64,000 bases of DNA. Origin: Schoenoplectus triqueter. Its lineage: Eukaryota > Streptophyta > Magnoliopsida > Poales > Cyperaceae. Positions 1,801-62,381 of this stretch are shown here, in pieces. The stretch spans positions 62,001 to 126,000 of the forward strand of contig CAXKVV010000114.1 in the NCBI GenBank assembly GCA_964058805.1, given 5' to 3'. The position numbers and the translations under genes were made by a program. A model generated the notes under the pieces. It searched no databases. It had not been told where the DNA came from and was given only the letters and a program-made list of their open reading frames with translations. Each line of letters starts with the position of its first letter. Within the stretch, counting starts at the first letter, position 1.

Positions 1801-2300
1801 GTCCGCTTCTGTTTCTCTCTATCCCTCTAATAGATTCGAGGAAGAAGAAGGGGGTAACAGTGGAGCTTCGGTTGGTTTCTACTTCTTCTTCCTTCTTTCT
1901 TGGTTGATTTCAGTTTGTGGAGTGATCGAATGTGGTCGTACTAGTACCTATCACAAGAACGGATCTTGCCAGGTTAATAACTTTGATTTCTTGGGGGGGG
2001 TTTTTAAAAAGAAAAAAATTGGTACCTTGGTTTTTTTATGAGGGGGTCGCTTGGGGTGAGAGGCAAGCTAGCTAGAGGGAGGAGCAATTAGGTTCTAGAA
2101 TAGAGCGAGAGGGAAAGAATGACTGGGAATGGGAATGGGATTCTTCCTTGGAAGCATTTCAGAGGGTTTCTTTGAAAATTCAAGGATAGAGAGTCGGGGA
2201 AGGGAAGAGTGAGAGAGAGGAAGCGACTTAGCGAGCGAAGTCAATTGATTGGAGCCGTACGGTTAATTAATTTATAATTTTTAGTTTTTGACATTTAATC
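1801..2300 (-). promoter_or_regulatory. 5' leader and proximal promoter region of the GAE gene
   Basis: About 500 bases upstream of the epimerase start. They are clearly less AT-rich than the DNA beyond and contain purine-rich stretches on the plus strand (GA-type at about 2085-2225), hence pyrimidine-rich on the coding strand, as in many plant 5' leaders. No TATA box or start site was assigned with certainty. The abrupt drop to AT-rich sequence near 2260 suggests the leader or core promoter ends there. Confidence 0.35.
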
Positions 2301-2385
2301 TTAGGCGATAAAACGGTGAAATTCAGGAGGTTTTGTTTTGTTAAATTTGAGGGATTTTAGAATTGGGTGTGGGATCAGTTAGTTT

Positions 2386-2712
2386 AATAATTTTGACAAT
2401 GAATTTTTAAATAAGTATAAAAAATAAATTAAAAATAAAAAAAATATTATAGATATATTATTCTATTTATAGATTGATATTGATTTAAATTTTATATAAT
2501 TTTATTATCATTTGATATTCTATTAAGAACTATCAAAATTTTATATGATTTGCAACAGTTATAATTTGACGTCCTTTGATAGATTATCAAATGACAAAAA
2601 AAAATATAAAGTTTAAATCACGCTCAATCTATAAGTAGAAAAATATATTTATATAATTTTTTATTTTAAATTTGTTTTATATTTATTTAAAAACTTATTG
2701 TAAGATAACCAT
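2386..2712. mobile_element. AT-rich foldback MITE-like element
   Basis: An imperfect inverted repeat. The left arm at about 2391-2522 (around TTTTTAAATAAGTATAAA and TTTATAGATTGATATTGATT) is matched in reverse complement by about 2572-2706 (AATCACGCTCAATCTATAAG and TTTATTTAAAAACTTATTGT). The loop is about 50 bases. Size and structure fit a non-autonomous foldback DNA element. Target duplications were not clear, so no superfamily is given. Confidence 0.55.
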
Positions 2713-5700: not shown

Positions 5701-6280
5701 TATGCTTAACATAGTTAATTAAGACAAAAATCCTCCAAATAGGAAGATTATATATACAAGTTCGAAATTTAGCACACATCACCGAAACAATTGAATTTGT
5801 TTATCACCATCTTATGCTTAAACTAAAATGATAAAAAGGTAAATCTGCATCCCATGAAAAGGCTAATATTAATCATTCTCCAAAGAATTGTTTATATTTA
5901 ACATCAAAGCTATTTATATAAAAAATGAACGAATATTTAGCTAATATTGAAAGCGTCCACAATTTTCCAGTGAATTATGAAATGTTCAAGTTAATGTTTT
6001 GGTAGATAAGTATTAATAAAAATCTTGATGTTTTTATATTCTTCAAATATATGGCATGTAAACAATTTAATTGATGAATACATTTTTTTTATTTTGAGAA
6101 GAATAAATTTATATGAGACGTAAATAAGAAGACTGATAAGAGATGTAATTATCACTTCCCTAACTTTAATTATAGAATTGATCATTTCACCACCGTCTAG
6201 AAGGCAAAGTGAGAAGAATAAATCAAATATCAAAGAAAAAGTAAAAGTTTTCCATAGTCTTCTTCCGAATAGACATCATT
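2713..6280. other. AT-rich intergenic DNA, no gene seen
   Basis: About 3.6 kb with only short chance frames. It holds an AT dinucleotide run at 4890-4913 and many A/T homopolymers. No frame has codon structure or motifs suggesting a real gene, and no RNA gene was recognised. Confidence 0.6.
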
Positions 6281-30082: not shown

Positions 30083-31465
30083 GGTCCGTTTGGCAAATTA
30101 AGGAATGACTTTGGAAGAATGATAATTTTGGAAGAGTGATAGAATAGTATTTTTTTGGAAGAGTGGTAGAAGAGTGGTATTCTTGACTATTCGGAAGAGT
30201 GAAAATATCGTTTGACAGTTGTTACTCAGAATAGTTAAAATATGAATAATTATGATACTAATAATGATGATAATAATAATAGTAAAATAATAATCATAAT
30301 AGTAAGATAATAATAATCATAATAAATAATAATATTATAATAGTAATATAATAAAAATATAAACATTATCATAATATAGTAATATAATAATAAAAAATTA
30401 TGATTACAATCATAATTATATAACCATAATCAAAATCATAATAATATAATAATAAAAATATAATCATAATCATCAAAAATAATTATAAATAATAATAATT
30501 ATAATAATATAATAATAAATTAATCATAACTATAATCAACATATAATAATATTATACAACATAATAAAATAATAATAAACTAATAAAAATAATCATAATA
30601 AATAATAATATTATAATAGTAATATAATAAAAATATAAACATAATAATATAGTAATATAATAATAATAAATTATAATTACAATAATAATTATAATAATAT
30701 AATAATAATAAGTAATCATAATTTTAATAATATAATAATCATAATCATGATAATAATACTTATAGTCATAATCATAATAATATAACCATAATCATAATCA
30801 TTATAATATAATAATAAAAATATTATCATAATCATAAAAATAATTATAAATAATTATAATTATAATAATATAATAATAAATTAATCATCACTATAATCAA
30901 CATATAATAATATAATATAACATAATAAAATAATAATAAGTAATAATAATCATAATCATAATCATAATCATCATAATATAATAATATAATAATAAATAAT
31001 CTTGATCATAATAATATAATAATTATATTTATATTCATAATATAATATTAAAATTATATTTATAATAATAATAAATAATATAATAATGCTAATTGTAATG
31101 ATAATATAATAACAATAATGATAATAATAATTTAATAATAATAATAATATAATAATAATAATAATATAATAATAATAATAAATTATAATCATAAATATAA
31201 TATAATAATATAATAATACTAAATCTTAATCATAATATAATAATATATCATAATAATATAATGTAATATAATATAATATAATATAATCAAACAGTAATCG
31301 CTATTCCGACGAGAGCTAATCCAGTATTCCACCTATAAGTTGGTATACCGGATTAGCACTATTCCGCACTCTTCTACTTAGTCTAAAATTTGTTTGGCAA
31401 ATTAATTCGTCGGAATAGCTATTCTATTTCAACTTTTTGCTATTCCATGGAGTGCCAAACACTCC
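30083..31465. mobile_element. non-autonomous DNA element filled with TAA-type low-complexity sequence
   Basis: Left end GGTCCGTTTGGCA and right end TGCCAAACACTCC are inverse complements with small differences. The 5-base direct repeat CATAG flanks both (30078-30082 and 31466-31470). Sub-terminal motifs such as GGAAGAGTG and CTATTCCGACG resemble other plant MITEs with GTTTGGCA ends. About 1 kb of the interior (30235-31290) consists only of TAATAA/TAATCA-type repeats. Superfamily not assigned: hAT would require 8 bp. Confidence 0.6.
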
Positions 31466-31688
31466 CATAGTTAATAGTTAATTTAGAGGTTGTCAGAAGG
31501 TCAAGTCATGGTCTTTTATTGGTCCTTATATCTGACAAAAAATTGCAGGGTTGTCATGACAGATAGGCCCCTCAAAAGCCATGTTTTAAATAAATACGAA
31601 ATAAATTATAATTTTAATAATAAATATTAATTAATTAAATTTTTAATAACAAACATAACAGCTCAGATGAAGTGTATATTTAAAACGC
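31466..31688. other. short spacer between the 30-kb element and the palindrome
   Basis: AT-rich; nothing recognised. Confidence 0.4.
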
Positions 31689-31869
31689 ACTAGTGTTTAC
31701 CCCTGAAAGGTTGAAAGAAGAAATACAAGAGAGAAAGCCAAGATCAAACCCTATGAGCTGAAGCAGTACAATCCCTGTACTACATGGAATAGTATCAATG
31801 CCAAGCCAGTATTTTGATACAACCAATCATGAGAAATCCCAATGTGATTTTTACTTTCAAGGCTGACCT

Positions 31870-32115
31870 GGTGCCAAAGCTGTGAGCAACCACCTAACCA
31901 TGCTTTAATTTGTGTCAATGGCTGATAAGTAGTCAGCTCTATGACCAAATTACCCTCATGTTAAGGGATTGAAAGTCAATTTCACAAGACTGATCAGGTG
32001 CCAAAGCTGGGAGCAACCACCTGATCAAGTCTAGATTTGTATTAATTGCTGATAAGTAGTCAGCATTTGATCAAATCAAACCCTAATAAATATCAATATG
32101 TCTAATTGGTATTTA
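31870..32115 (+). repeat. 127-base imperfect direct repeat in the left arm
   Basis: GGTGCCAAAGCTGTGAGCAA at 31870 recurs as GGTGCCAAAGCTGGGAGCAA at 31997. Both are followed by a CTGATAAGTAGTCAGC block. The mirror copies lie in the right arm. Confidence 0.7.
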
Positions 32116-33744
32116 GTTAGGGTGGTTTCTGCAAGGAGAATTTATTTGGCAGAGACACTGAGCTACAACTGATAAATAGGGATTTTATAAGAATAAAATA
32201 GGGTTTTATTGATCATGGAATTTTTAGCACAAGCAGACAGGGGTAAAATGGGAAAATAAAAATACAGAGATGATTATCATGATTTGAGAGAATTTTGGTG
32301 AAAATTTCATGATTTTTGGATGAAGGGATCTATTAAAATCAATTGGAGAAAGAAAATCAGATCAATCCAAGGGTCAGGATTTGATCAAGGGCTTTTATGG
32401 GTGCAATTTGGAGCTGAAGGGCTATCTGGGTGCAAGATGGGGCTGCCAAACAAGGGGAACACTCATATGGCGCTGGGGAGAATTTTTGAAGAAGAAAAGA
32501 CTGTGTAAACGTGGTGCATGATCCATGTGCCTCATTAAGCCCGACTTGTGGGGCCAGCCCGCGTGCGCCAAGCTCATTCAAACCCAAAGAGAAGAGTATA
32601 GATTTCTGTCTCTCATTAAATCTGACAGAGGGGGCCCACTCTCTACTGTCGCTTACATTTGGACCCCATCTGTCAATAGCCCCTCTCTTCCCGTGTTTCG
32701 GTCTATGCACACCAGGTTCATGCAAGCGAGATAATAAATTCAATTTTCTTCCTCCCCTCCCGGTTTCTTCTCTTCTGCTCGACTCCTCTCTGACATTGAA
32801 GGTGAAAATGGCGCCTAAGAAGATTACATAGGAAAGGCCCCTTACTATATACCAATCAAAGGCTTGCAAGGAGAAGAACACGATGGAGTAATTGCTTTAC
32901 CGAATGGTGCTTCATAATGCACTCGCATTAAAGGTAAAGGGAGCTCGGCCAAAATTCAATTGAGGCAATTTAAAGCTTAATCACTCGAATTAATGGCTCA
33001 TAAGGCATCTCTGAGCCTCCACGACACTGTCTAGACCTTTAAACCTAAGCCTCAACATCTCTAGACCCGACATTCACCAACATGCCAACCGCCCATGAAA
33101 TGGAATGCCCAAAGTCAATGTCAGATTGAGCAAATGGCCAGACAGGTGAGTTGAACTTATCCCTGGGGCTAGTGTGATGCTAATAATGCTTGCAATTGAG
33201 AGAATGTATCAAGAGATAAGGGAAATTGATCCAAAATTTTAAATCGGGTTTTGGATGAAAATAGGGGTCTAGGATGCTTAATTGGATCTTTCTGTCATCC
33301 AAACCCATTAAGAGGAGTGCTGAGGTGATGTATGGATGACTAGAAGGTTCTAGAAAATCCCAGAGGGAGGAGATTACATAGATAGTAGTTGGATGGCAAG
33401 ATTGTAAATTCAACCAAAGTATAACAAACTGAAAACTGCTAATGCTTTCGGTTGAGATAAGTTGATAACTACTTGAGAGTGGTTCAGTAGACCGCAATAG
33501 GCGCCAGAGGAGAATGATTGAACCATAAATTGAAAGACCAAGTGTAAATCAGCAAAAGGAATCCTAGAAGATTAAGGAAGCTGTTAAACTACCAATTCAA
33601 GCTTCAAACTGCTCCCTTCAACAAACACAATTGCATCCCAGTCGTAGAATGAAATGAGGTGGAGGGCCAAGATTAATCCAGATTGGCAATCCAGGTGGAA
33701 GATGATCAGCCAATCAGAATTGATTAAGTAGAAGATTAGAAACC

Positions 33745-33752
33745 TATATAAA
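33745..33752 (+). promoter_or_regulatory. TATA-like box facing the spacer (left arm)
   Basis: CCTATATAAACC in otherwise mixed sequence, oriented toward the centre. Its mirror is at 38546-38553 on the minus strand. An AATAAA lies 485 bases downstream (34237-34242). A promoter role is inference. Confidence 0.35.
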
Positions 33753-34056
33753 CCTAAGGATCAATGAAGGAGGCAGCATCTACTGGCAATCAGAAACAGA
33801 AAAAAAAATCAAGGAGAGCTTAGACTGAGAAGTTTAATAGAGATTACCAGTAAAGGGAGGAAAGGGATCTTTGCTGCAACCACGAATTTGACACTATCAA
33901 AGACAAATTGAATCTTGTGAATTGAGAGTACATAAGCTGCATTACAAGAGAGGTTTGCAGAATCAAGGATATTATTCAATTTCTTTTACTGCTTGAATTC
34001 TAATTTCTTCTCTTTGTCTTTTTCTTTCTTCTCAATTGAAGGCTTGATGCACATAT

Positions 34057-34312
34057 CTTGTGAGCCACTGGCCCAGGGATACCTGGTGAGCCTTTAGGCC
34101 GAGATAAATGTGACATCAACCAAGGAGTGTTGTTGAAAGTTATGAATTTGAGTTGATCTTTGAATTTTATTTCAGTTTTCTTTACTAATCATGCTTATCC
34201 CTTTGAGCTATATTGTTTGAACATTGATTAGGGGTTAATAAAAGTTTCTCAGCATGTCTTGTGAGCCACTGGCCCAGATATAACTGGTGAGCCTTTAGGC
34301 CGAGGCAAATGC
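34057..34312 (+). repeat. paired GAGCC..GGCC hairpin modules
   Basis: Two copies of a 54-base module start at 34057 and 34258. Each contains GTGAGCCACTGGCCCAG followed by GGTGAGCCTTTAGGCCGAG. Each half can form a tiny GGCC/GGCC-type hairpin. Two modules per arm give four in the palindrome. They are the most conserved-looking parts of the arm. Confidence 0.65.
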
Positions 34313-36099
34313 GAGTAAAAAGAACAGATTATTGAACATCTGTTGAGATCCATCATCAATTACAACCTAATTTCAAGAATTCAGATAAAAGGCGGTGAAT
34401 TGGCAATATCAACAAGCATATATCACATTACAAGTTAAGAATCTAGTGTTAATATGGATTTATTTCATCAATTCATCGACATATGAGCATCTGGTAGCAA
34501 ACCGGTACCAAGGTGAGCATCGGTACGGGTGGTGCAGTACTTCTACCGTATCGATCTTCAATCTAGCACTACCAAAGGAATGAGGATATCAAGGCGATGC
34601 TAACCCCGTCGTCTGATCTGCTATTGGCTTCTCCGATCGCCGGAACACCCTCTGTGCGTGAATCTCAAAGCGCGATGAAGAAAAGAATCGAAGAGATCAT
34701 CTGGCGCGACTATTAAAGTGCTCACAAATCTTGAAGTTCATCGGTGCGTGTGATCTGTCCAGAGTTTAAAGGGAGAGAAGATCTGGGTCTTAGATCCATT
34801 AGACGCGCATCTTAACTAAATCTAACGGCCCAAACACATCTAAACATTTAAATAAAATTCTGCACTAATCTTGGTATAATCTGATGGCCCACATTAAATA
34901 ATAGAGTTAACAGAATTTGAATCGGCCCATCCGGGTATTGGGCCCAGTTCACAGGAAATTAACAGAATTTAAAACTTTGCCCAGTATAATAAGCCCAGCT
35001 ATTAGTTAATAACAGAATATTAAAATTAAATAGTAAATAAATCATTTGAAAATACTACTAAACTCCAAATTGACTCAATTTTTTTTTTCTAAAATTTTCT
35101 TATTTTTCATACTATTTTTCTATATGATAATATTCCAGTTTTAAAAATATAATCATAATAAAACAATTTAAAAGCAAAAGATATTACCTATATTGATATG
35201 TTTGACCTAGATTTGACTTGTCATTTTAAATACTATAAAAATTCCAAAAATACAAATAAAAATCATAAATAATAATTAGATATATTTTAGTGATTTTTCA
35301 AGTAATTTTCCATGAAATAATAATGATGATAGTAATATGCTATAATAAATAATGAGATTAGCTATATTCTTTGATAAATAAAAAAAAATAATAGATATTA
35401 TATTGATATTTTCTGTAAAAAGAATAATAAAAAAATAAATAGCATAAAATATACAAAAATATACTACCATGTTAATGAATAGTAAAATACATTTTTCTTT
35501 TATAATAAAGAATGATAATATAGTTTTATAATATGAATTGTATTTCTTTTGTTATTTCTATACAAATAAAAATACTTTTGATGAATAAAATGCAATAAAA
35601 ATAATAGTTGTAATAAAAACATAATGAATTTCATCTCTTATGGCTATTTTCAACTAATAATGAAATTTTATACTTTTCTATAGATAATAAATAGAAATAA
35701 TAAAAATAATAATGAATAGTATAATAAATAAGATAGAATATTAATAATGATTTCTTTTTAGCTATTATAGATCTTAAAAATAAAAATAATAATAATAAAA
35801 AATAATATAGCTAGCTATCTTTTGATTTGTAAATAATTTCTATATAATGAATAGTGTTTCAACATAATAGAATATAATAATAAAATTCTATTACTTTGGC
35901 CATTTTAAACATTTTGAAAATATAAATAAAAATCATAGCCATCTTATTTTCTATTATTTTTGTAAGTGGTTTTCTACAAAATAAATAGAGTTTAGAAATA
36001 ACAAAAATAAAATTCTACTATTTTAGCTATTATAAAAATCCCAAAAATATAAATGAAAATCTAGTTAAATTCTACTATTTGTAGGTTTGTCTTCCATAG

Positions 36100-36197
36100 A
36101 TTGAACCGATCTGTTTGTAGGTTCATCTTCCGTAGACCTCTTTTTATAAACCTGGACGACCACTTGACCATTTTTTAACTATACTATTTGCTTCTCT
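36100..36197. repeat. 98-base central spacer of the palindrome
   Basis: The only sequence between the arms. Its first third contains GTAGGTTCATCTTCCGTAGA (36118-36137), a diverged copy of GTAGGTTTGTCTTCCATAGA from the end of the left arm (36081-36100), at a period of 37 bases. The rest is unique and AT-rich. Confidence 0.85.
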
Positions 36198-39100
36198 CTA
36201 TGGAAGACAAACCTACAAATAGTAGAATTTAACTAGATTTTTATTTATATTTTTGGGATTTTTATAATAGCTAAAATAGTAGAATTTTATTTTTGTTATT
36301 TCTAAACTCTATTTATTTTGTAGAAAACCACTTACAAAAATAATAGAAAATAAGATGGCTATGATTTTTATTTATATTTTCAAAATGTTTAAAATGGCCA
36401 AAGTAATAGAATTTTATTATTATATTCTATTATGTTGAAACACTATTCATTATATAGGAATTATTTACAAATCAAAAGATAGCTAGCTATATTATTTTTT
36501 ATTATTATTATTTTTATTTTTAAGATCTATAATAGCTAAAAAGAAATCATTATTAATATTCTATCTTATTTATTATACTATTCATTATTATTTTTATTAT
36601 TTCTATTTATTATCTATAGAAAAGTATAAAATTTCATTATTAGTTGAAAATAGCCATAAGAGATGAAATTCATTATGTTTTTATTACAACTATTATTTTT
36701 ATTGCATTTTATTCATCAAAAGTATTTTTATTTGTATAGAAATAACAAAAGAAATACAATTCATATTATAAAACTATATTATCATTCTTTATTATAAAAG
36801 AAAAATGTATTTTACTATTCATTAACATGGTAGTATATTTTTGTATATTTTATGCTATTTATTTTTTTATTATTCTTTTTACAGAAAATATCAATATAAT
36901 ATCTATTATTTTTTTTTATTTATCAAAGAATATAGCTAATCTCATTATTTATTATAGCATATTACTATCATCATTATTATTTCATGGAAAATTACTTGAA
37001 AAATCACTAAAATATATCTAATTATTATTTATGATTTTTATTTGTATTTTTGGAATTTTTATAGTATTTAAAATGACAAGTCAAATCTAGGTCAAACATA
37101 TCAATATAGGTAATATCTTTTGCTTTTAAATTGTTTTATTATGATTATATTTTTAAAACTGGAATATTATCATATAGAAAAATAGTATGAAAAATAAGAA
37201 AATTTTAGAAAAAAAAAATTTGAGTCAATTTGGAGTTTAGTAGTATTTTCAAATGATTTATTTACTATTTAATTTTAATATTCTGTTATTAACTAATAGC
37301 TGGGCTTATTATACTGGGCAAAGTTTTAAATTCTGTTAATTTCCTGTGAACTGGGCCCAATACCCGGATGGGCCGATTCAAATTCTGTTAACTCTATTAT
37401 TTAATGTGGGCCATCAGATTATACCAAGATTAGTGCAGAATTTTATTTAAATGTTTAGATGTGTTTGGGCCGTTAGATTTAGTTAAGATGCGCGTCTAAT
37501 GGATCTAAGACCCAGATCTTCTCTCCCTTTAAACTCTGGACAGATCACACGCACCGATGAACTTCAAGATTTGTGAGCACTTTAATAGTCGCGCCAGATG
37601 ATCTCTTCGATTCTTTTCTTCATCGCGCTTTGAGATTCACGCACAGAGGGTGTTCCGGTGATCGGAGAAGCCAATAGCAGATCAGACGACGGGGTTAGCA
37701 TCGCCTTGATATCCTCATTCCTTTGGTAGTGCTAGATTGAAGATCGATACGGTAGAAGTACTGCACCACCCGTACCGATGCTCACCTTGGTACCGGTTTG
37801 CTACCAGATGCTCATATGTCGATGAATTGATGAAATAAATCCATATTAACACTAGATTCTTAACTTGTAATGTGATATATGCTTGTTGATATTGCCAATT
37901 CACCGCCTTTTATCTGAATTCTTGAAATTAGGTTGTAATTGATGATGGATCTCAACAGATGTTCAATAATCTGTTCTTTTTACTCGCATTTGCCTCGGCC
38001 TAAAGGCTCACCAGTTATATCTGGGCCAGTGGCTCACAAGACATGCTGAGAAACTTTTATTAACCCCTAATCAATGTTCAAACAATATAGCTCAAAGGGA
38101 TAAGCATGATTAGTAAAGAAAACTGAAATAAAATTCAAAGATCAACTCAAATTCATAACTTTCAACAACACTCCTTGGTTGATGTCACATTTATCTCGGC
38201 CTAAAGGCTCACCAGGTATCCCTGGGCCAGTGGCTCACAAGATATGTGCATCAAGCCTTCAATTGAGAAGAAAGAAAAAGACAAAGAGAAGAAATTAGAA
38301 TTCAAGCAGTAAAAGAAATTGAATAATATCCTTGATTCTGCAAACCTCTCTTGTAATGCAGCTTATGTACTCTCAATTCACAAGATTCAATCTGTCTTTG
38401 ATAGTGTCAAATTCGTGGTTGCAGCAAAGATCCCTTTCCTCCCTTTACTGGTAATCTCTATTAAACTTCTCAGTCTAAGCTCTCCTTGATTTTTTTTTCT
38501 GTTTCTGATTGCCAGTAGATGCTGCCTCCTTCATTGATCCTTAGGTTTATATAGGTTTCTAATCTTCTACTTAATCAATTCTGATTGGCTGATCATCTTC
38601 CACCTGGATTGCCAATCTGGATTAATCTTGGCCCTCCACCTCATTTCATTCTACGACTGGGATGCAATTGTGTTTGTTGAAGGGAGCAGTTTGAAGCTTG
38701 AATTGGTAGTTTAACAGCTTCCTTAATCTTCTAGGATTCCTTTTGCTGATTTACACTTGGTCTTTCAATTTATGGTTCAATCATTCTCCTCTGGCGCCTA
38801 TTGCGGTCTACTGAACCACTCTCAAGTAGTTATCAACTTATCTCAACCGAAAGCATTAGCAGTTTTCAGTTTGTTATACTTTGGTTGAATTTACAATCTT
38901 GCCATCCAACTACTATCTATGTAATCTCCTCCCTCTGGGATTTTCTAGAACCTTCTAGTCATCCATACATCACCTCAGCACTCCTCTTAATGGGTTTGGA
39001 TGACAGAAAGATCCAATTAAGCATCCTAGACCCCTATTTTCATCCAAAACCCGATTTAAAATTTTGGATCAATTTCCCTTATCTCTTGATACATTCTCTC

Positions 39101-40612
39101 AATTGCAAGCATTATTAGCATCACACTAGCCCCAGGGATAAGTTCAACTCACCTGTCTGGCCATTTGCTCAATCTGACATTGACTTTGGGCATTCCATTT
39201 CATGGGCGGTTGGCATGTTGGTGAATGTCGGGTCTAGAGATGTTGAGGCTTAGGTTTAAAGGTCTAGACAGTGTCGTGGAGGCTCAGAGATGCCTTATGA
39301 GCCATTAATTCGAGTGATTAAGCTTTAAATTGCCTCAATTGAATTTTGGCCGAGCTCCCTTTACCTTTAATGCGAGTGCATTATGAAGCACCATTCGGTA
39401 AAGCAATTACTCCATCGTGTTCTTCTCCTTGCAAGCCTTTGATTGGTATATAGTAAGGGGCCTTTCCTATGTAATCTTCTTAGGCGCCATTTTCACCTTC
39501 AATGTCAGAGAGGAGTCGAGCAGAAGAGAAGAAACCGGGAGGGGAGGAAGAAAATTGAATTTATTATCTCGCTTGCATGAACCTGGTGTGCATAGACCGA
39601 AACACGGGAAGAGAGGGGCTATTGACAGATGGGGTCCAAATGTAAGCGACAGTAGAGAGTGGGCCCCCTCTGTCAGATTTAATGAGAGACAGAAATCTAT
39701 ACTCTTCTCTCTGGGTTTGAATGAGCTTGGCGCACGCGGGCTGGCCCCACAAGTCGGGCTTAATGAGGCACATGGATCATGCACCACGTTTACACAGTCT
39801 TTTCTTCTTCAAAAATTCTCCCCAGCGCCATATGAGTGTTCCCCTTGTTTGGCAGCCCCATCTTGCACCCAGATAGCCCTTCAGCTCCAAATTGCACCCA
39901 TAAAAGCCCTTGATCAAATCCTGACCCTTGGATTGATCTGATTTTCTTTCTCCAATTGATTTTAATAGATCCCTTCATCCAAAAATCATGAAATTTTCAC
40001 CAAAATTCTCTAAAATCATGATAATCATCTCTGTATTTTTATTTTCCCATTTTACCCCTGTCTGCTTGTGCTAAAAATTCCATGATCAATAAAACCCTAT
40101 TTTATTCTTATAAAATCCCTATTTATCAGTTGTAGCTCAGTGTCTCTGCCAAATAAATTCTCCTTGCAGAAACCACCCTAACTAAATACCAATTAGACTT
40201 ATATTGATATTCATTAGGGTTTGATTTGATCAAATGCTGACTACTTATCAGCAATTAATACAAATCTAGACTTGATCAGGTGGTTGCTCCCAGCTTTGGC
40301 ACCTGATCAGTCTTGTGAAATTGACTTTCAATCCCTTTACATGAGGGTAATTTGGTCATAGAGCTGACTACTTATCAGCCATTGACACAAATTAAAGCAT
40401 GGTTAGGTGGTTGCTCACAGCTTTGGCACCAGGTCAGCCTTGAAAGTAAAAATCACATTGGGATTTCTCATGATTGGTTGTATCAAAATACTGACTTGGC
40501 ATTGATACTATTCCATGTAGTACAGGGATTGTACTGCTTCAGCTCATAGGGTTTGATCTTGGCTTTCTCTCTTGTATTTCTTCTTTCAACCTTTCAGGGG
40601 TAAACAACTAGT
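36198..40612 (-). repeat. right arm of the palindrome
   Basis: 4415 bases, the inverse complement of the left arm. It carries mirror copies of all left-arm landmarks, including the TATA-like box at 38546-38553 and the module pair at about 37986-38241. Its outer end has a few extra bases (CAACTAGT instead of ACTAGT). Confidence 0.9.
38546..38553 (-). promoter_or_regulatory. TATA-like box facing the spacer (right arm)
   Basis: Mirror of the 33745-33752 motif. On the minus strand it points into the palindrome centre. Confidence 0.35.
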
Positions 40613-40790
40613 AAGACTAGTGTTTTTCAATAAATGTGTTTTTTCTTTAAATGCGTTAATGGGACTAGCATTTTTCCATCAATGCTCTAGTGATAGTAAT
40701 ATTTTTCTATTAAATGCATCAATAGAACTGATATCTTTCCACTAAATGCACCAGTGAGACTAGTACCTTTCTACTAGGACAGTACTCACA
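40613..40790 (+). repeat. degenerate minisatellite of about 34 bases beside the palindrome
   Basis: Repeated units of the type GACTAGTGTTTTTCAATAAATG, GACTAGCATTTTTCCATCAATG, TAATATTTTTCTATTAAATG and TGATATCTTTCCACTAAATG follow directly after the right arm. The same ACTAGTGTTT string forms the outer end of the left arm (31689-31698). Confidence 0.6.
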
Positions 40791-41985
40791 AACCCTACAA
40801 TTCATAATTCATAATACATAAAGAGAGTTAAACTTTTTAAGCATGTCACGTTATTACTTTTCTCTACCATTGATTTTATTTTTTTATTTTTTTATTTTTT
40901 TGAATCCATAAATTCATATAAAATAGAGAACTCCTCATTTAAAATAATGTGTGTAGTATACTTAAGGTGAAATTTTATTAAATATATTTAACATCTTATA
41001 CAACAACAACAACAATAATGCATTTAATCCCAAATAAATTGAGGTAGGCTAGAAATGAAACCCAATATGAAAGCATAAAATCAGAAATCTCAAATATTAA
41101 TAAAATAAAAATAAATAAATATGATAATGATAATGATGATGATAATATGATAATAATGATAATGATACTGATAATATGCTAATAATAATAATAAAATAAT
41201 ATAATAAACCTACATTATAAAGTATATTTCTAAATCATTAATTCTAAACTCTAAAATTTTAAAATCTAAGAACTGAAAAATTAAAAATCTCAAGTCTATA
41301 ACTCTACTATTAAACTCTAACTCATAAATCATGATCTGATATATGGATCGTGATCTTCTAAGCACTCCTATCTAAAGCAATTACTTTTGATATATTTTAT
41401 TCTTTCAAAAATTTTTTATTGCTTTCTCTCATGTCACTTTTGGTCGACCTTTTCATCTTTTTGTGTTTTCAGGACGGCTTAGAATAACACTACATATTGG
41501 TGCTTCAGGAAGCCCTCATTGGAAATGACCGAATCATCGCAAACAGTGTTGAACCAGATTCTCTTGAATTGGTGTTACCCCAAATTTATCATATATATCA
41601 TCATTTTTGATTTGATCTCTCCTTGTATGACCGCACATCCAATACAACATTTGCATTTCAGCTACATTCATCTTCTTATGACAGAGAATATTAGACGTTT
41701 GTCTTCATTTCACCCATCCGGCTACGGATTGCATATGCAAACATGTATTCTAAAAAGTACTTTAAATATTTGACTTAATCATTTATTTTTAAAGAATTTT
41801 AATATAAAATAAGAAAAATATAATAAGAACAGAATATTAATATAATTTTATTTTTTTTTGCATGAAATATGATATGATTAATTTTGTAGGTTTAATATGA
41901 TAAAATTAAAAAAAATAGCGCATTACTAAATATACAGACGTATATTCTTATACATACGGTTTGCGTTGCATATGCGTAGGTGTCC
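40791..41985. other. intergenic DNA
   Basis: AT-rich, with short CAA and GATAAT microsatellite-like tracts (about 41000-41200). No gene recognised. Confidence 0.5.
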
Positions 41986-47896: not shown

Positions 47897-48159
47897 GTAA
47901 TAATAAGTTTTATTAAATTAATATTATTAAAAATAAGAGTGAGAAATGTAAAATTTCAAATATACGAATGGCAGCGCGCCACTGTCAGTGGCGCGTTTGC
48001 TTCTTATATATACAAAACGCGCAGCGCTCTCCATCTCACTTGTGCAGGATTTGGACGAAACGCGCCACTGGCAGTGGCGCGCTGCCATTCATATATTTAA
48101 AATTTTATGGTTCTCACTCTTATTTTTAATAATATTAATTTAATAAAACTTATTATTAC
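47897..48159. mobile_element. MITE hairpin with GC-rich nested palindromes and 6-bp direct repeat
   Basis: Outer arms GTAATAATAAGTTTTATTAA and its complement extend inward over about 95 bases through AAAATAAGAGTGAGAA and GAATGGCAGCGCGCCACTG. Flanks are AAACTA at 47891-47896 and 48160-48165. Inside, GCGCGCCACTGTCAGTGGCGCG and CGCGCCACTGGCAGTGGCGCG are each palindromic, so the arms can fold both with each other and on themselves. No coding capacity. Confidence 0.75.
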
Positions 48160-48849: not shown

Positions 48850-50389
48850 ATGATGAACATAGGCGCCATTACTGCCGCAAAGAGCGAGAAAGCTAATATT
48901 CTCTCTTCCTTCATGACCTCTCCTTCTCCTTCTTCCTCTATACCTTCTCTCCCTTCCTTCTCCCCTTCTCCAGTAAGTTCTCAATTTTCTTATATGCCTC
49001 CAATTTACACGAAGAGCATCAATGCATTTAGCATGTACTGACACCTTGTTTTGATCTTTACAGATCCCAGAGCAGGAAGAGAAATCAAACTCAAACGCGA
49101 AGAACCACCAAAATAACCACCAGCATAATTGTCCCACTGATAGCGGGTCCCACGAGCCGACCCCGCTCCAACCCTCCTCCAAGAAGAAACGAACTCCGAA
49201 GCAAACTCCACCCATCGCATCAGGTTGCGACGATCCTAACACTGTCGTATCAGTCTCCTGCTCCAAGTGTCGCCCCTCCTCCCGCGATGCCAAGAAACCC
49301 TCGGTGGTCCCTATCTCCCCCACCTCCACGTCAGCCTCCCGTCGCATTACACCTCCCTCGCCTCTCTCCCTCCTCAATTCCCTCTTCAACCGCCGCGCCG
49401 GTTCGATCTCGTCCAACACGACCCCTCAATCCACCGTCGCATCAGCTTGCGACGACTCCGATCCACAGTACTGGCGCGCCACCGCCACCGAGCTATCGAA
49501 GAAGCTCATCGTTGCCACTCGCAAGCGCGACGAGGCGCTTCTAGAAACCTCTAAGTTGAAGTATTCCCTCTCCGAGCTGGAACTGAAGCTCGCACGACTG
49601 GAGTCATCTTACCACGACCTAGCGCAGCTGAACCGGACCGGACCGACCGGTCTAGCCTCAACCAGGAGCGATCCCGACCCGTTTGTTCAATCCGTCTCTG
49701 ATTCGCGCGCGGCTTCACGCCTCCTTGCACGCGCGCTCTCTTCGCATCTACGGAAAAACCCGGTGCATAGTTCGTCTGGTTTGCTTCCGGCTCATATGGA
49801 AGCATTTCTGAACCGGATTTTTTATTCCGGGTTTGAACTAGACGTAGAAGAAGAGACCAAGTTAGCCAGCCCAGCAGAGAGATGTGAGCTGAACAGGACT
49901 GCATACGAGTCGATATGCGGCTTGACATGGGACGAGGTGTTATCTAAAGGGACCAAGCATTTTAGCGAAGGGCTGAGCCGATTTTGCGATTCAAAAATGA
50001 GTGACGTGGTCGGTTCGATTGGCTGGCCGAAATCCTGGCAGGAATCATTGCTACAGGTTTTCTTTTTGGCTGCCAAAGCAGCTTGGTCGGTACGGCTTTT
50101 GGCCCGATCGGTTTACCCACCTGTTCCGATAATTCGGGTTGATAGAGGTGCCAAGTATGACAGCCGGTTCATGGAAGACATGGCCTCTGACCGAGCTAGT
50201 ACCGACCGTCTCGATCCGGTCAGTGTGAAAATGTTGGTTGCACCGGGTTTTCATGTGTATTATGCAGGGGACACTGTGGTGAAGTGTAAGGTGCTGTGTT
50301 TGTATAATAGCCGCAGGGATGGCTACAGAGATGCGAGTGTAGGGGATGGGGTGGGGCAGTGTCAGTTAGAGATAACAGATAAGGTGTGA
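48850..50389 (+). CDS. IRK-interacting protein / GIL1-family (DUF641-related) protein, 2 exons
   Basis: Exons 48850-48972 and 49064-50389 with a 91-base GT-AG intron in phase 0; 482 residues. The N-terminal 170 residues are Ser/Pro-rich and disordered-looking. Residues about 177-231 form a coiled coil (YWRATATELSKKLIVATRKR onward). The C-terminal globular part (about 255-456) has blocks known from plant GIL1 and IRKI proteins: LLPAHMEAFLNRIFYSGFE, LTWDEVLSKGTKHFSEGLSR, FCDSKMS, WQESLLQVFFLAAKAAW, RFMEDM, MLVAPGFHV and VVKCKVLCLYN. GIL1 acts in light-dependent gravitropism; IRKI binds a leucine-rich-repeat receptor kinase. Both are cytosolic scaffold-like proteins, so a signalling role is inferred. 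The GC content of the second exon is much higher than its surroundings. The start MMN is the first ATG after the GA-rich leader. Confidence 0.9.
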
Positions 50390-54834: not shown

Positions 54835-57800
54835 TCAGTAGTATGATATTCTTGGAGCATACTCTGCTGGGTAGGACCCACCATTTGGATATGGATAGCT
54901 AGGTTGCTGCAATTGCAAACCAAGTTACACGAGCCAAATCAATAATTATATCAAAGCTGTGAGAAGTAATCGAATAAATCAATCAACACAAGGGCCTAGC
55001 TATTTGAACCTACTAACTTCAACAACAGATTAAAATTAAAAAATTGAAACAAAAAACAGTTCAAACCTGATATCTGGGATAAGCGGCATATCCAGGATGG
55101 CTTGTTGGAGGAATTGGCGGTTCTGTAATACCCGATTTAAGTGAAGAATGTAAATATTTACAAAATTGGGTTGGGACTTATTAATAATAGCCAAACTTGA
55201 CAACCTTGACAAGGCTTTCTCAAATCAAGTTAACAAACATGTAAAATGTAACAAAAATTTAGCCATATTATATATTGATTGTGCTTCAATATGCATGCGA
55301 TATGGATTCATTTAGTGTTTACATCAAGTGTCATAAAATATGGATCATTGCAAATTTTGAGTCATTATTTTTAATGTGATGTGGATAAAAAGAATCACAT
55401 TCCAATTGTCAGATTTCAAAATATTAATTATTTTTGAACAATTGTAATGGTTGTCAAGTTAATCCATTCAGTGGATCTCAACCCCGAGGAATTTTGCATC
55501 CTATTGGCAAAAATAAATTCAAAGACACCAAAAACATTTATCAATAGAAAAACTTGACAAGTACATACCTCTGGTGTAAACAACAGCTCTGTCATATGCA
55601 CCATCATATGGAGCAGGAGCACTGATTGGTCCACAAAATTTTACAAATCAGAGCACATTCTTTTTTTAGAAACTCAGTCAAATGTAAATTATGTCTTTGA
55701 GAATCTGACAGAAGAAAGAAAGCTACATCGAGTCTATACCTTGGTTCATAAACATGCCTAGTGCAAGGACCATGGTGGGTAGGTAGTACATACCCTGCAT
55801 GAGGTGCCTATATATACAAGCAATCATTATGAAAGGATTTATATATAACAGCTTCCAAGTAGTATTGGTAAATGTACAAACAAATGAAGTGGAACAAAGA
55901 ATTACTAGATCAGAGCGGTGTGAGTGGTAAGACTGAGATGCATGAGCATGTGGCTCATGTGTCCGACTAATATAAAAGGGCTCATGTGCCCTGCTAGTAT
56001 AAAGGAGATGTTGTCTGCTCGGTTCATGTATCCTACTAGTATATGGAGGCGGTGCATGTATACTATTAGTATACGGAGGTGGTGCATATGCATACACCGC
56101 CGAGAGGCCTCTACCATTTGGAGATCCATAACTGTGATAATCACCTGAATAATTTCGCCAAACAAGAATCACAATCTACCCTTAAAATATTTTTGAACTA
56201 AAATATACACATATGGAAGTGCAAGTTACCATGATGGTCATTGCGAGATCTTTTGGGAGCTCTCTCCTTATTCAGAGAAGGCCCACCCCTCTGACGCTGT
56301 TTATTACCCTTAAATGGTTTTGGCTTTTTTGTCCCCGATTGATGAGGATGGGGTCCACCTCGTATCCCCATTTCATTCTTAACTTTTTTTCCCCTTGGAT
56401 GGTCCTCTTGAAGACTCTGGTGCCTCTTTAAACGGTCTTTTTTTTTACCCTTGAGGGTGCACCGGAACCAGTGCATCCTTTTTGGGTCTTTTCTCTGCTG
56501 CATGTTGGTGTGGTGCTTCCCTAGGCATCTCGACATTTGAGACCTTGTGAACCATTTTCTTCTTTTTAATTGTTTTTTGAGGTAATAGAGCATTCGGTTT
56601 TTGGGTAATGACACCTTTTGATTTGGGTTTCTTGTGCTTCTTTTTAGTCTGCCCAAGTATCTCAATTATTTTAACCTGCACCTTTTCAACATTTTCATCC
56701 TTACTACTTATTTTAGCCTCCTTTTCAACCTTAAAATTGCCACGCATCACATATTTTGTTCCGGTTTTCTTTGCATAAGGCCTTGCAATAGAAGCACTCA
56801 CCTGAAAATCCAGTCCTATTCAGAAATGATCAATAACAAAGTCCTAAGAGTTTGCCAAATGTCCTTTTACCAAATAACCCCAGTTTTTCCAGTGTTTTCA
56901 AATGGCGCCACTATTCCTTCTTATGAAGAATAATAAGACTAGTTGCCTACATTTAACTAGCCTTTATAATAATTAGCATCATACTTTACAATCCTTGGAG
57001 TAATTTACATTGATGGCATCTATCTACTATAACAAACAGAATTACTGGTTACTTGTTATGGTTCATTTTGTATTTTATTTAATGTCCCTGTGAGTGAGTT
57101 ATGGTCTTTTTAGTAGCAGCAGTGCTCATCATAGTCTTTCCAAGGATGCAGATTCTCTTTGCGAATACTGAAAATGTAAGGTGTTTTTTGCCAGTCAAAA
57201 TAAACACTTAAAATTGAGTATTTATGAATTTCTCATCACTGACATACTACAAGGGCATATTTTGGCAAAAAAAAATACACACCTTTGTATCACCATGATC
57301 AACTAATGCCTTGTTCAACCCCTCAACACAATTCAAGGCACTCTCGCGGGATATAAATTCAACAAATGCAAAATCCTTCTTTTTTCCAGTCTTCGATTTT
57401 CGATATAGCTTAATTTTCTTTATAGCCCCATATTCCTTGCAAATCTCCTCTATTTTCTTACCATCCCAATATGTAGGTATTGGCTCAAGATATACTGATT
57501 TCACCTGCCATAAGTGAGAAATAAATAACAATCTATTTGCACAAATTCACATGATACATCAAGTAATAAAAAAGAAAGAAACATCACCCCCCCCCCCAAA
57601 AAAAAAAAAAGCACGCAAGCACAATAAAGAAAAAAAAATTCAGTCATTGCACTTTATCCCTCCATACTTAGTCAGCTCATTCACATGCCATAAAGTAACT
57701 AGAGATGCAAATTTGAAATTATATACTAATAACACTTATACTGGGTTTGATTTCCGAGTAAAGATACCGTGAGCTTAACTCAAAAAGTACATCAAATCAT

Positions 57801-60800
57801 CTCCAAATTTTAATTTATCATGCTCATTAAATTCTTTATATGAAAATCTTGTGGGATGCAAAAATTTGGAGTGTTTTGAGTTTTTTAAGTCACCGTTTTT
57901 AATTTTTAAAAATGATGTTCAAACATTGAATATTTTATTATTATTTTTAGAGCTGATTTTCAAAAAATCAGGACTTAAAAAGCTCAAAACACTCCAAATT
58001 TTTGCAACCCGCAAGATTTTCATATAAAGAATTTAATGAGCAAGATAAATTAAAATTTAGAGATGATTTGAAGTACTTTTTTACTTAAGCTCACCGGAAG
58101 GCCTCCGTGAGCTTAAGCTCACGGTATCTTTACTCTTGATTTATAGTATAAATGCAAATTTGGGATTAAAGGCTTTGTTGTTGTATACTAATTACACTTA
58201 TAATCCCTTAAGCTATTATATGACATGAGATTTGATCAAATAGTTTACACAAATTGACCTTGCATATGAAATAATGGCTGAATAAAAGCTTCAGGAAGCA
58301 AGTGCAGTATGAACTATATGCATGCCATAAAAACCATATATTGCTACAGAAGTTGATATCCCAGAACAAGTGAATTAACAAATATTAAACATAATAAATT
58401 AGAGATGATGAATATAATTTCCACCAGACATCTATACCAACTCCAGGCCCTATAAAGTTATTTATCTAATTAAGAAATTTACCAATATTTGAACTACAAT
58501 TATAGATAAAATTAAATAAAGAAAGGAAATATACAAAATGGTGCCATCTGTTCAAAGTCAATTAATGAAAATTTCAGGGTTGTCATGCATACATACAATA
58601 AAGAATTTCAAACGTGGTTTCTAAACATAGAGAACATTCAGGTGGCTTTTGAGATTTAACCTAAAAAATATAATAAAAATGAGAATTGATTTACCTTGGC
58701 TAGTAGCTCCCCATCATACTTTACTGGGAATTGTGCAAATGAAACCTTGGCACTAAAATCGCAGCCAAGAATGGCATCTGGCTTGCACAAACGATTCAAA
58801 GCAGATTTTGCATCAATATGCGTGTAGAACTCTACAAAAGCAAAACCCTTAATCTTGCCCTCAACTTTCGGATCTTCAGGTAAGGCTATTTGTTCTATGC
58901 TTTCTACCCCAAGGCCTTTTAGTGCATTTAGCACCTGGAGGACAAGATAAAAGAGATAAGATAAGGCAAACGTTTACCTCCTAATTCTTGGTACTTGCTA
59001 ATTCATTAAAAAAAGTGAAATTTGCACATTAACCCCTTTGAAGGAATCAATTTTAAGGGTTATTCACTTATTTGAGATCAGTTAATTATTGAACACACAA
59101 ATGATGCTTGCGATTTTTAGAGGATGTGATGTAAAATTAATTTTATACAAAAAGTTTGTTTCATATGAACCTGATCCTTTGACCAAGACTTGCATATATT
59201 GCCGACAAAGAGCGTGCAGTTCTCCGGGTTGCTGGCTGAGATATGCACTGTCCTTCCCTTAATCTGATAAAATGACACACTACAAGTAAGTGCCAGACTT
59301 AAACTAAATAGATATGGAAACTCTACTGCTATGCAATGTTCCTTTAAACATATAATCCTATCTGACTGAATGAGCTCTAAATTTTAGTTAATTGTCATGT
59401 TCTCTAAACAAACAAAGGAGCAGAATAACTTAACAGGTCCGGTCATACTTGTCCAAAATCCAGATATCACTGGTGCATTTTCATAATTGAACAGACCTAA
59501 CTGAACTGTACGAGCACCTCCTAAAACCAGTAATGGGTTTATGGTTTAGTTAGAAATCTAACCTCTGTACCATCCTTAAACTGAGACAGAGCCTTCTCTA
59601 CCGCCTCAGCAGTAGAAAACTGCAAAAAAGCAAAGCCTTTGCTTTTCTGGGTTAATGAATGCCTGATAACCCTAACAGATTGGATCTCCCCAAACCTGGC
59701 AAAGACCTCAGCAATGTCTTCTTCAACCACGGTTTTCTCCAACTGACTTATAAAAACTTGAGTCTCTTTGACTTTTCCGTTGGGCAATAGAGCTTTCATG
59801 TACATAGTGGGTTCGGGCACATCACCCAACTCCTGAGCTTCTTTTTCTCCTCCTCCTCCGTCTACTGATGCACGTTGCACATCTGGAGAAGATAAATAAA
59901 GGTTTAAAAACCTTTTGGGCGTGGTTTAAAACACAGGTCGGGTTGGATTTCACCCAGCAAAAAGATATTAGAAATGGGTGAAAAACAGCTCCTTTTACAA
60001 CCCAACCTATAAAACAAACCTTAACAGATACAGTGCAAGTCCCAGTGCATACAAACACAGAGATGACACCGGTTTCTGAGGAGGAGACAGAATGCCCCTA
60101 TGAGTAATACAATGTCTTTGGATTCAGAAATTTATGAGCAAAAGCAGAGCTTTTCTGAATCCAGTTCTGTAACGGCCCAACCCAAATTAGGCCAGGGGGG
60201 AAAAGCAGATTGTTATATCCACAACTCGCATAACAAGACTGCCTTTTAAAACTTATAATCTTGAACACAACTTGTCAAACAAGCATAATGTGCTCAAAAC
60301 TAAGTCCAATTGAACTCTAGCAGATCACCAAACAGCCTTTTCTGTACTAGCAAAATGCATACCTTGGCCTATTCTAATACAATGTTTTAGTTGACTGCGC
60401 GAGGATGCACACAAGTTTGGTAGAGAACCAAGTGTGGCTTTACGTTGAACTAATCCCCTAGGATGTATACTGTTATACTTATATCTTGTGATCTGATGCA
60501 AACTATGTGAAACAGCTGACAAGAGAACATAGGCCAACACAATTAAGCATTTATGTCAGCACAAAAATAGGAAAACGTACTTTCTAATTATAGCTTCTAA
60601 CACTCGCAACAAGTTGGAAATGGGAATTGAAAATTATGTAAAATCAAAAGAAGATCAACTTTAGTTTAATATATAATATCACCATCAAATGGAAGGAGAA
60701 ATTAAAGTGCATATACCATAATCCATGTAACACTAACATTTGGGTAAAAGGTATATGGTCATTGAACTCTAAACCTCCTTGCAATATCCAATGGTTTTAG

Positions 60801-62381
60801 ATGTTTATCGCTCTCATACTTCTAATTATGTAAAATCAAAAGAAGATAAGCAGTTCAACTTTAGTTTAACATATAATATCACAATCAAATGGAAGGAGAA
60901 ATTAAAGTGCATATACCATAATCCATGTAACACTAACATTTGGATAAAAGGTATACGGTCATTGAACTCTAAACCTCCTTGCAATATCCAATGGTTTTAG
61001 ATGTTTATCGCTCTCATACTTCTAATCACTGCTAAGAGGTTCTTGAATAACATTTACAAGTTAATCCAACTCTCCTTGCTAATCATATCTCGACCAAAGA
61101 GCAAGAATCTTCAAGGGAATCAACATGACTATAATATATTACTCTAGCAATTTTCTAATACTACTGTATTTGTCAAGAAATTAAAAGGCATGACTGGAAT
61201 TAACAATAACATAATCCAAAAACTTACCTTCAACTGCAATAATACCTCTCTTCTCTTCGTTTCTTTTTCCTTGTGTAAACTCTTCTTTTCCATCTCCCAT
61301 TTCCACCTCTTCTTCCATGGGCTCTTCTTCCTCCTCTTCTTCCCCGTCTTCTTCCTCCTCTTCCTCTTCTTCTCCATCCTTCTTCCCCTCTTCTTCTTGC
61401 TCCTCTTCTATCGGTTCTTCTTCCTCCTCCTCTTCTATTGGTTCTTCCTCCACATCTTCCATTGGTTCTTCTTCCTCCACCTCATCCATTGGTTCTTCTT
61501 CCTCCACATCATCTATTGGTTCTTCTTCCACCGCTTCTTGCTCCATAGGTCCTTCTTCTCCTTCTTCAACAGACACTTCTTCTATCGGTTCTTCTTCGTC
61601 CACTGGCTCTTCTTCTGCTGGTTCTCCTTCAACTGGCTCTTCTTCTTTCAGTTCTTCTTCATATTCCAATGGCTCGTCCTCTATAGGTTCTCCTTCTTCA
61701 TCCTCTTGTTCTTTATTTGCTTCCTTTTCAACAGGTTGTTCCGCAATTTCTCCTCTGTTTGCTGGTTCCTCAGTCTCAAATTTTTCAATCGTCTCACCTT
61801 CATCTTGTGCTTCCTCCTTGTCGGGTCCTTCTTCTATTTCTTTTTTTCCACCAGTCTGCTCTGTGTTCTCCTCTTTTTCTTTCACTGTTTGGACCTCTTC
61901 TTCTCTGTCCATCTCTTTCTCCTCTCCTGCATTCATTTCCAGTACCTCTTCCAATTGTTCTTCTGCTCTACCATCTATCTCGTCCTTTGAAGCCTCTAAT
62001 TTCTCTGTCTCGATCTCTTTCTCAGACAAGGATCCGATCTTTTGTTCAATTTGATCTCTTTTCACCGACGCAACCGCCTCTTTCTTCACCACGGACGCGA
62101 TGACCTACAGCCCTCTTCTTTGCGGGTCGAGCGCGAATTACCGGGTCAGATTGGGACGATGCTCCTTCCTCGGTACTGTTAAGCTTGATTGCAGATTGCG
62201 CAGTCATAATCAGGTCGAATGTTCCGGTTTGGTCATTTTCTAAGATAGAATCGGCCTCGGGAGTGGTGCTTTCTTCGATGGTGGATGGATGCGGCGCCGC
62301 CTCGACATCTGCGGAAGAGGCGGCGGGGGTGGAAACCCTGCGCTTGGCGCCGGTGGTTTTCTTCCCGCGACGAGGAGGCAT
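54835..62381 (-). CDS. acidic three-RRM protein, LIF2-like / hnRNP Q-like, 11 exons, with two frame disruptions
   Basis: Exons in transcription order: 62381-61228, 59882-59563, 59263-59171, 58934-58695, 57504-57283, 56801-56230, 56144-55906, 55807-55740, 55621-55569, 55122-55067, 54906-54835; all GT-AG. If the first and sixth exons each lost one base, all phases agree and the product is about 1028 residues. Layout: basic start MPPRRGKKTTGAKRR, a Glu-rich region of about 250 residues with EEEPIEE/EEEPMDEVE repeats, then RRM1 (RNP2 VFISQL, RNP1 KSKGFAFLQF), RRM2 (LFVGNI, KIKGFAFVEF) and RRM3 (VYLEPI, KKKDFAFVEF). A Lys-rich linker and a Pro/Tyr/His-rich tail end it. Three RRMs in hnRNP Q order match plant LIF2 and its paralogues, nuclear RNA-binding partners of LHP1 chromatin. 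The exact paralogue is not certain. As sequenced, exon 1 shifts frame between 62046 and 62107 and exon 6 between 56445 and 56665. Confidence 0.88.
55906..56144 (-). repeat. tandem Pro-Tyr-His peptide repeats in the three-RRM protein
   Basis: Within exon 7 the tail repeats units such as APPPYTNSIH, APPPYTSRIH, LYTSRAHEP and FYISRTHEP, about 11-16 residues each, with matching DNA repeats (TATACTAGTAGGATACATGA type). Low-complexity tails of this kind are common in hnRNP-like proteins. Confidence 0.6.
57756..58135. mobile_element. MITE hairpin inside the intron between RRM2 and RRM3 exons
   Basis: Ends GAGTAAAGATACCGTGAG and its complement. The arms continue inward through long inverse matches such as AAATTTGGAGTGTTTTGAG. 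TTGATTT lies just outside on the right (58136-58142) and two bases outside on the left (57747-57753), a probable target duplication. The intron is 57505-58694, so the element does not interrupt coding sequence. Confidence 0.7.
60632..61026. repeat. 192-base tandem duplication in the first intron of the three-RRM gene
   Basis: AATTATGTAAAATCAAAAGA starts at 60632 and again at 60824. The copies stay nearly identical through ATGTTTATCGCTCTCATACT; copy 2 has a small insertion (TAAGCAGTTC) and scattered substitutions. It lies in the 1345-base intron 59883-61227. Confidence 0.85.
61320..61690 (-). repeat. coding minisatellite of the acidic region
   Basis: Glu-rich repeat units of about 24-30 bases (plus-strand motif ATTGGTTCTTCTTCCTCCAC and variants) encode EEEPI/MxxVEEE. 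The opposite strand reads as long Ser-only or Leu/Phe-only frames, which are artefacts of this composition. Confidence 0.75.

Follow-up and report, generated by a model that had tools for sequence, protein, structure and literature searches.

A palindromic insertion of LTR-retrotransposon sequence in Schoenoplectus triqueter, ending in U3 on both sides and with a probable origin before integration

Introduction

A stretch of 64,000 nucleotides from the sedge Schoenoplectus triqueter (contig CAXKVV010000114.1, positions 62,001 to 126,000 of the forward strand; here called the window, G000:C112:62001-126000) contains an 8.9-kb palindrome that consists of long terminal repeat (LTR) sequence. It is very probably a palindromic complementary DNA (cDNA) of an LTR retrotransposon that was formed before integration and was then inserted by the integrase through two identical U3 (unique 3′) ends. 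The assembly to which the window belongs comprises 82.1 Mb in 2086 contigs, and C-numbers in this text denote contigs of that assembly. The duplication of the arm most likely arose before the insertion, because both ends of the element are the U3 end of the LTR and share one target-site duplication. A first-pass annotation, made from the letters of the window, had offered an inverted duplication as one of its options, and this description holds only in that special sense. If the proposed origin is true, the locus is evidence from nature that a Ty3/gypsy integrase of a plant can integrate a DNA that has U3 at both ends and lacks a U5 (unique 5′) end, and three template jumps can be read from a single cDNA. 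It would also offer a way in which the long inverted repeats of plant genomes could arise in one step; these repeats matter since hairpin loci can initiate the silencing of a transposon family.

Structure of the palindrome

Comparison of the window with itself by BLAST aligned 31689–36100 with 40612–36197 in inverted orientation, at 99.706% identity over 4416 columns, with 9 mismatches and 3 gap openings (E 0.0). When the arms alone (31694–36100, 4407 bases, and 36197–40606, 4410 bases) were aligned again, their identity was 99.8%, with 9 substitutions over 4407 sites and 2 indel events, namely AA at 32099/40199-40200 and A at 35076/37221. The near-perfect palindrome with 4.4-kb arms of the first-pass annotation is therefore borne out, as is its estimate of at least nine substitutions and small indels. 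Its limits are to be corrected, since the outer bases 31689 and 40612 include the flanking 5-bp duplication and one chance base; the element itself spans 31694–40606, and its spacer (36101–36196), previously given as 98 bases, measures 96 nt. Outside the element the flanks have 29% ungapped identity over 300 bases, which is the chance level, and no BLAST match was found between the left and right flanks over 1 kb. That the arms contain no coding gene also holds, the longest mirrored frame (179 amino acids) having no match in Pfam. An Rfam scan of the window gave no match at the gathering threshold, and ARAGORN (bacterial code) found no tRNA in it. The features of the locus are listed below, with LTR positions in the numbering of the C51 copy that is described in the next section.

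31689–31693, plus strand: left copy of the target-site duplication, ACTAG, 5 bp (from the sequence)
31694–36100, plus strand: left arm, the LTR from its U3 terminus inward (LTR 1 to about 4620, a deletion of about 1.4 kb, LTR 6047–6069)
33744–33754, plus strand: left TATA box CTATATAAACC, about LTR 2050, putative promoter directed towards the centre (motif shared with other LTR rows)
36010–36023, plus strand: AAATTCTACTATTT, likely source of the filler (sequence comparison)
36067–36080, plus strand: left-arm deletion junction with filler (pattern found only in the palindrome)
36101–36196, plus strand: spacer, the next LTR stretch (LTR 6070–6164), single copy in the element
36197–36199, plus strand: turn-back point, where TCT pairs with AGA at 36098–36100 (comparison with C51, C1500 and C180)
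36197–40606, minus strand: right arm, the same LTR stretch reversed, ending with the inverted U3 terminus GGGGTAAACA
36217–36230, minus strand: right-arm mirror of the deletion junction and filler
38544–38554, minus strand: right-arm TATA box, directed towards the centre
40607–40611, plus strand: right copy of the target-site duplication, ACTAG

The arms and the donor family

Judged by its sequence, each arm is the outer part of an LTR of about 6.2–6.5 kb that belongs to a Tat-type Ty3/gypsy retrotransposon dispersed in the same assembly. The outer 3 kb of the arm gave 44 matches in the assembly (40 scored of 683 candidates), and 40 of these 44 begin at query bases 1–6, that is, at the end of the element. 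In C51, two LTRs of about 6417 bases each form a direct pair (7 differences over 6415 sites, 3 indels) with the duplication AGACC outside. The left one is followed by GGATCTGGCACGCCCGGTGGGACC, a site resembling a primer-binding site (PBS), and then by a frame of at least 2954 amino acids on the same strand, so that a single gag-pol frame, preceded by the PBS-like site, lies between the 5′ and the 3′ LTR. These features orient the C51 LTR and identify the outer end of the arm as the U3 terminus. Pieces of this frame match, in order, gag, reverse transcriptase, RNase H, a second RNase H (RVT_3), the integrase zinc finger and the integrase core (in the third piece of L010, RT_RNaseH 202–305, RVT_3 375–487 and rve 666–763); a protease match fell under the cut-off. 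In Ogre and Retand, which are Tat elements of angiosperms, RNase H and integrase are separated by a second RNase H (PMC6317226; PMC10508981). The donor family has the same arrangement, and its assignment to the Tat clade rests on this domain order.

The first 22 bases of the LTR (up to 2 mismatches) occur at 103 places, 48 forward and 55 reverse, and the 100 listed starts lie on 76 contigs, 58 of which have one each. Among the 24 neighbouring same-contig pairs of these listed starts, 22 are direct, 18 of them 12.1–18.5 kb apart, which is the size of an element; the other two are a minus-then-plus pair, 35.5 kb apart, and a plus-then-minus pair, which is the palindrome locus. The 3′ end of the LTR is commoner (779 matches, the first part of which was listed). 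From that listing, the inverted neighbour pairs of C271 and C212 were fetched as controls, with other minus-then-plus pairs such as those of C42, C174 and C22 (19–27 kb apart) lying outside the control. Both control pairs are old and form no palindromes. Because they are only 75–95% alike, an identity of 99.8% over 4.4 kb is not typical of these neighbour copies. The first-pass annotation had proposed to look for genome copies with the same ends: the arm is indeed dispersed, as an LTR, but the palindrome junction is present only once. The closest relatives shift along the arm, with C2065 at 96.5% over the first 748 bases and C180 at 97% over 1232–3012, and no single donor copy was found in the assembly.

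Other members of the family present features of their own. In C291 (L023), C1500 (L025), C1957 (L026), C2065 (L012) and C618 (L016), the LTR 3′ end lies in tandem units of about 142–146 bp, each of which holds the LTR end and PBS-like sequence. The PBS-like copies of C291, C1500 and C1957 are within the stretch that the 5-bp duplications bound as LTR, which suggests LTRs growing by incorporation of the primer site. At C2065:91000-117000 (L012–L014) there are two LTR starts 17.8 kb apart, both after internal 3′ sequence GGTGGCTCTT, and upstream of the LTR start the 99.7–99.9% repeat continues for 2.1 kb or more; this locus is probably a multi-LTR tandem complex with a shared LTR. C618 (L015, L016) holds a member with identical 762-bp LTRs and the duplication GCGGT, within a tandem array of about 58-bp period.

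Termini and target site

Both outer ends of the palindrome are the U3 terminus (TGTTTACCCC), with the U3 start sequence TGTTTACCCCTGAAAGG at each, and an exact direct ACTAG directly adjoins them. An ordinary insertion of the family has the U3 end on one side and the U5 end (...GGTCGCACA) on the other, with a PBS-bearing internal domain between them, or is a whole solo LTR; here the right end is an inverted U3 end and the element is LTR throughout. The palindrome shares with the family, in addition to the LTR sequence, the TG...CA termini and the 5-bp target-site duplication. Such duplications flank all seven testable other copies from the 10 contigs fetched: C51 AGACC, C810 AAGAT, C1038 ATATG, C291 TAAAT, C1500 GTGTC, C1957 ACTAT and C618 GCGGT. 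A copy was testable when both outer flanks were in hand, so that C2065, C1210 and C180 fell outside; for C291, C1500 and C1957, which have successive LTR ends, the last end without a following PBS-like site was used.

A degenerate AAT-type tandem repeat of about 1 kb (30245–31287) lies just to the left of the palindrome, and its right edge has matches at many places of the assembly (86–91%). The right flank (40607–40800) contains loose repeats around GACTAG and AAATGC(A/G)T.

Deletion, spacer and turn

In comparison with the C51 LTR, the left arm covers LTR 1 to about 4620 and resumes at LTR 6047–6069. The spacer is LTR sequence collinear with the LTR just after the left arm, and this order continues to LTR 6167 (...TTGCTTCTCTCT), where the reverse complement of LTR 6069 begins and leads back to LTR 1. 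Past the turn, C51, C1500 and C180 read TTCAAAG and the palindrome reads ATGGAAG; the final three bases before it, TCT, pair with AGA at LTR 6067–6069. The 1.4-kb deletion holds a 14-nt filler, AAATTCTACTATTT, and the same 14 nt are also found 57 nt upstream in the arm. In the whole assembly, a pattern spanning the deletion junction (up to 3 mismatches) has two matches, both in the palindrome arms, and a pattern spanning the turn junction has one; no second palindrome copy was found among the 40 scored of 1105 candidates.

Divergence of the arms

The arms diverge by 0.20%, and the values for LTR pairs of the family are 0.11% in C51 (7/6415), 0.10% in C810 (6/6217), 0.14% in C1210 (7/5179, a partial LTR) and 0 in C618 (0/762). 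The arm divergence is somewhat above, yet of the same order as, that of these four pairs, all of which are young. Three of the nine substitutions are private to the right arm: at 31806 and at 31962 all 14 rows of relatives have the left-arm base, as does the single row at 34639. Another three are private to the left arm, since all 15 rows agree with the right arm at 32088 and at 32286, and the single row does so at 33906. The calls at 33906 and 34639 thus rest on one relative each. The other three sites have mixed relatives: 32587 (2:1), 35839 (9:3) and 36055 (6:3). According to the state of the relatives, both indels are left-arm losses (all 15 and all 13 correctly oriented rows, respectively, with 4 wrong-strand pattern matches set aside). 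The substitution rows comprise both LTRs of some elements, in alignments of at least 300 bases; the palindrome loci L001 and L002 and the shorter duplicates L003–L008 were left out. Post-insertion changes hence appear to be mostly private to one arm (six of the nine substitutions and both indels).

Proposed origin and alternatives

The following series of events would account for the locus. An LTR strand with the U3 terminus as its 5′ end would have been made as a plus strand primed at the polypurine tract. Two template jumps at short homologies would have lost about 1.4 kb and left the 14-nt filler; their footprint is seen, and from it we infer the enzyme. At LTR 6167, the 3′ end TCT would have paired with AGA (LTR 6067–6069), belonging either to its own strand (snap-back) or to another plus strand; synthesis would then have returned to the U3 end. 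The junction of this turn is seen, and a snap-back of one strand is modestly favoured over the two-strand route. A duplex ending in U3 on both sides, as observed together with the 5-bp duplication, would then have integrated, in an order of events that we reconstruct from them. Later, each arm would have acquired the private mutations described above. Retroviral integrases are able in vitro to join two ends of the same kind. Palindromic DNAs of retroviruses are also on record, and snap-back or palindromic DNA was the subject of older retrovirus papers.

Several points weigh against this origin. The palindrome is known from the assembled contig alone, which was taken as given. A simple snap-back hairpin is one-ended, and a two-ended duplex requires a further step or a second strand. 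The 3-nt match at the turn is weak taken alone, and the shared deletion could derive from a donor copy outside the 82-Mb assembly, in which the nearest relatives change along the arm and no single donor was found. The chance of a 5-bp duplication is about 1 in 1024, and ACTAG occurs once more in the right flank (40616–40620). Neither 31486–31693 nor 40607–40797 had a further match among the 40 candidates scored per flank (of 859 and 1006), so that no empty site was found, and no intermediate of the U3-out palindromic cDNA kind was observed.

A variant of the same origin starts from two separate LTR cDNAs, either plus strands or broken linear cDNAs. Reverse transcriptase, or host end joining of the polymerase-theta type, would have linked them end to end through TCT/AGA, and they would have integrated by their two U3 ends. 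The two-ended duplex would then exist at once, and host end joining leaves short homology and templated filler, both of which are also seen here. Nevertheless, both molecules would need the complex deletion that the arms share and that is found nowhere else in the assembly, and six of the nine differing sites look arm-private and not like subfamily variants (three are mixed); this variant deserves serious consideration but is the less expected course. An inverted duplication after integration, in which a chromosomal LTR was copied backwards in break repair by fold-back priming, is improbable: short homology and a short spacer are typical of such repair, but copying would have had to stop by chance exactly at the U3 terminus, with the second ACTAG exactly next to it, and the left flank was not copied along.

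Still less credit is given to an assembly or library artefact, such as an unsplit hairpin read or an amplification chimera. Palindromes are a known form of artefact, and dependence on one contig would suit this explanation, but the flanks differ, the LTR termini are exact, the target-site duplication is present, the 96-nt spacer is asymmetric, and the arms differ by nine substitutions and two indels, most of them (six and two) arm-private. The new foldback family entertained in the first-pass annotation, that is, a DNA transposon with giant inverted repeats, has in its favour only the shape and is hardly credible, since the arm belongs, as an LTR, to a family of retrotransposons, 22 of 24 listed neighbour pairs are direct with the palindrome as the sole plus-then-minus pair, and the assembly has a single instance of the palindrome junction. 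Such a family would have several copies that share their inverted ends, and these were not found among 100 of the 103 starts and 40 scored of 1105 candidates. Two independent head-to-head LTR insertions were rejected as well, as separate events would leave neither a common target-site duplication nor a shared private deletion nor 99.8% identity.

Promoters and silencing potential

A TATA box, CTATATAA (once TTATATAA), is present at LTR 1571–2385 in 12 of the 13 other LTR rows (10 contigs); the row without it is that of C618, whose LTR has only 762 bases. In most fetched copies the stretch around this box is not alignable with the arm. The TATA boxes of the palindrome (33744, plus; 38544–38554, minus) face each other. 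Transcripts from either putative arm promoter would pass through the centre, and a stem of about 2.3 kb could form in them. The siRNA (small interfering RNA) locus of the IR71 type that the first-pass annotation had also suggested is possible because these putative promoters face each other; siRNAs directed against the retrotransposon family are plausible. The palindrome has the long near-identical arms and the short spacer of an siRNA locus, and is otherwise most likely a dead-end insertion. The TATAAA of the spacer may be a second promoter. A turn near the border of U3 and R (the repeated region), once considered from this motif, was dropped: the TATA box lies near LTR 2050 in 12 of 13 rows, and of the 9 rows that extend so far, 4 match the spacer motif exactly (3 insertions).

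Mu killer, an inverted and rearranged transposon copy, silences Mutator in maize. It is conceivable, though we think it rather unlikely, that retrotransposition itself makes counterparts of Mu killer, aborted plus-strand cDNAs giving rise to U3-out palindromes that the integrase accepts and that, with a pair of facing promoters in each, would be, from birth, hairpin-RNA genes against their own family.

Other features of the window

Three likely host genes were recognized: a UDP-glucuronate 4-epimerase (442–1818, minus strand), a GIL1/IRKI-type protein (49055–50389, plus strand) and a protein with glutamate-rich repeats, for which Pfam gave no match (61181–62104, minus strand). The best match of the epimerase frame is from Rhynchospora tenuis (93% identity, 98% of the query covered), which suggests a plant near that sedge genus; the next named match is to Typha (78%), and a 330-amino-acid entry has 95% over 72%. 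Short imperfect palindromes, resembling hairpins of miniature inverted-repeat transposable elements, lie at 57769–58094 (326 bp, 85%), 2396–2701 (306 bp, 79%) and 47897–48159 (263 bp, 83%).

Comparison with known systems

With the Arabidopsis inverted repeats of the IR71 type, the palindrome has in common a kilobase size, near-perfect arms and a short spacer; unlike them, it originates from a retrotransposon LTR and is known here as sequence. Like Mu killer, it would be a family-specific hairpin locus built from a mobile element, but Mu killer derives from a DNA transposon and its silencing has been shown, whereas the palindrome is retrotransposon-derived, its inversion most likely occurred in the cDNA and its silencing is putative. 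Elements of the DIRS type are not known to make a target-site duplication; the palindrome has the ACTAG duplication, and the integrase of its donor family is of the rve kind. DIRS-1 has inverted LTRs, a likeness to the palindrome, with sense and antisense transcripts reported, and the DIRS type is distinguished by a tyrosine recombinase (PMC5633606).

As in the Tat-type elements Ogre and Retand, the donor family has gag, reverse transcriptase, RNase H and a second RNase H before the integrase (protease below cut-off); unlike them, the palindrome is LTR-only and inverted. No example of a U3-out LTR palindrome insertion was found among the titles listed from the open-access literature, older retrovirus work being outside this scope, and the nearest case is that of Sabot and Schulman, who ascribed four complex insertions with an additional internal direct LTR to template switching, on the basis of 5-bp duplications and outer-LTR similarity (PMC1950507). 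In those complexes, as proposed here, aberrant reverse transcription produced an odd cDNA that the integrase inserted with a 5-bp duplication around the whole, and the same argument for a single event, from the duplication and the similarity of the outer LTRs, is used for the palindrome. Unlike those complexes, which contain three direct LTRs and two internal domains, the palindrome is mirrored, has neither an internal domain nor a U5 end, and terminates on both sides in U3.

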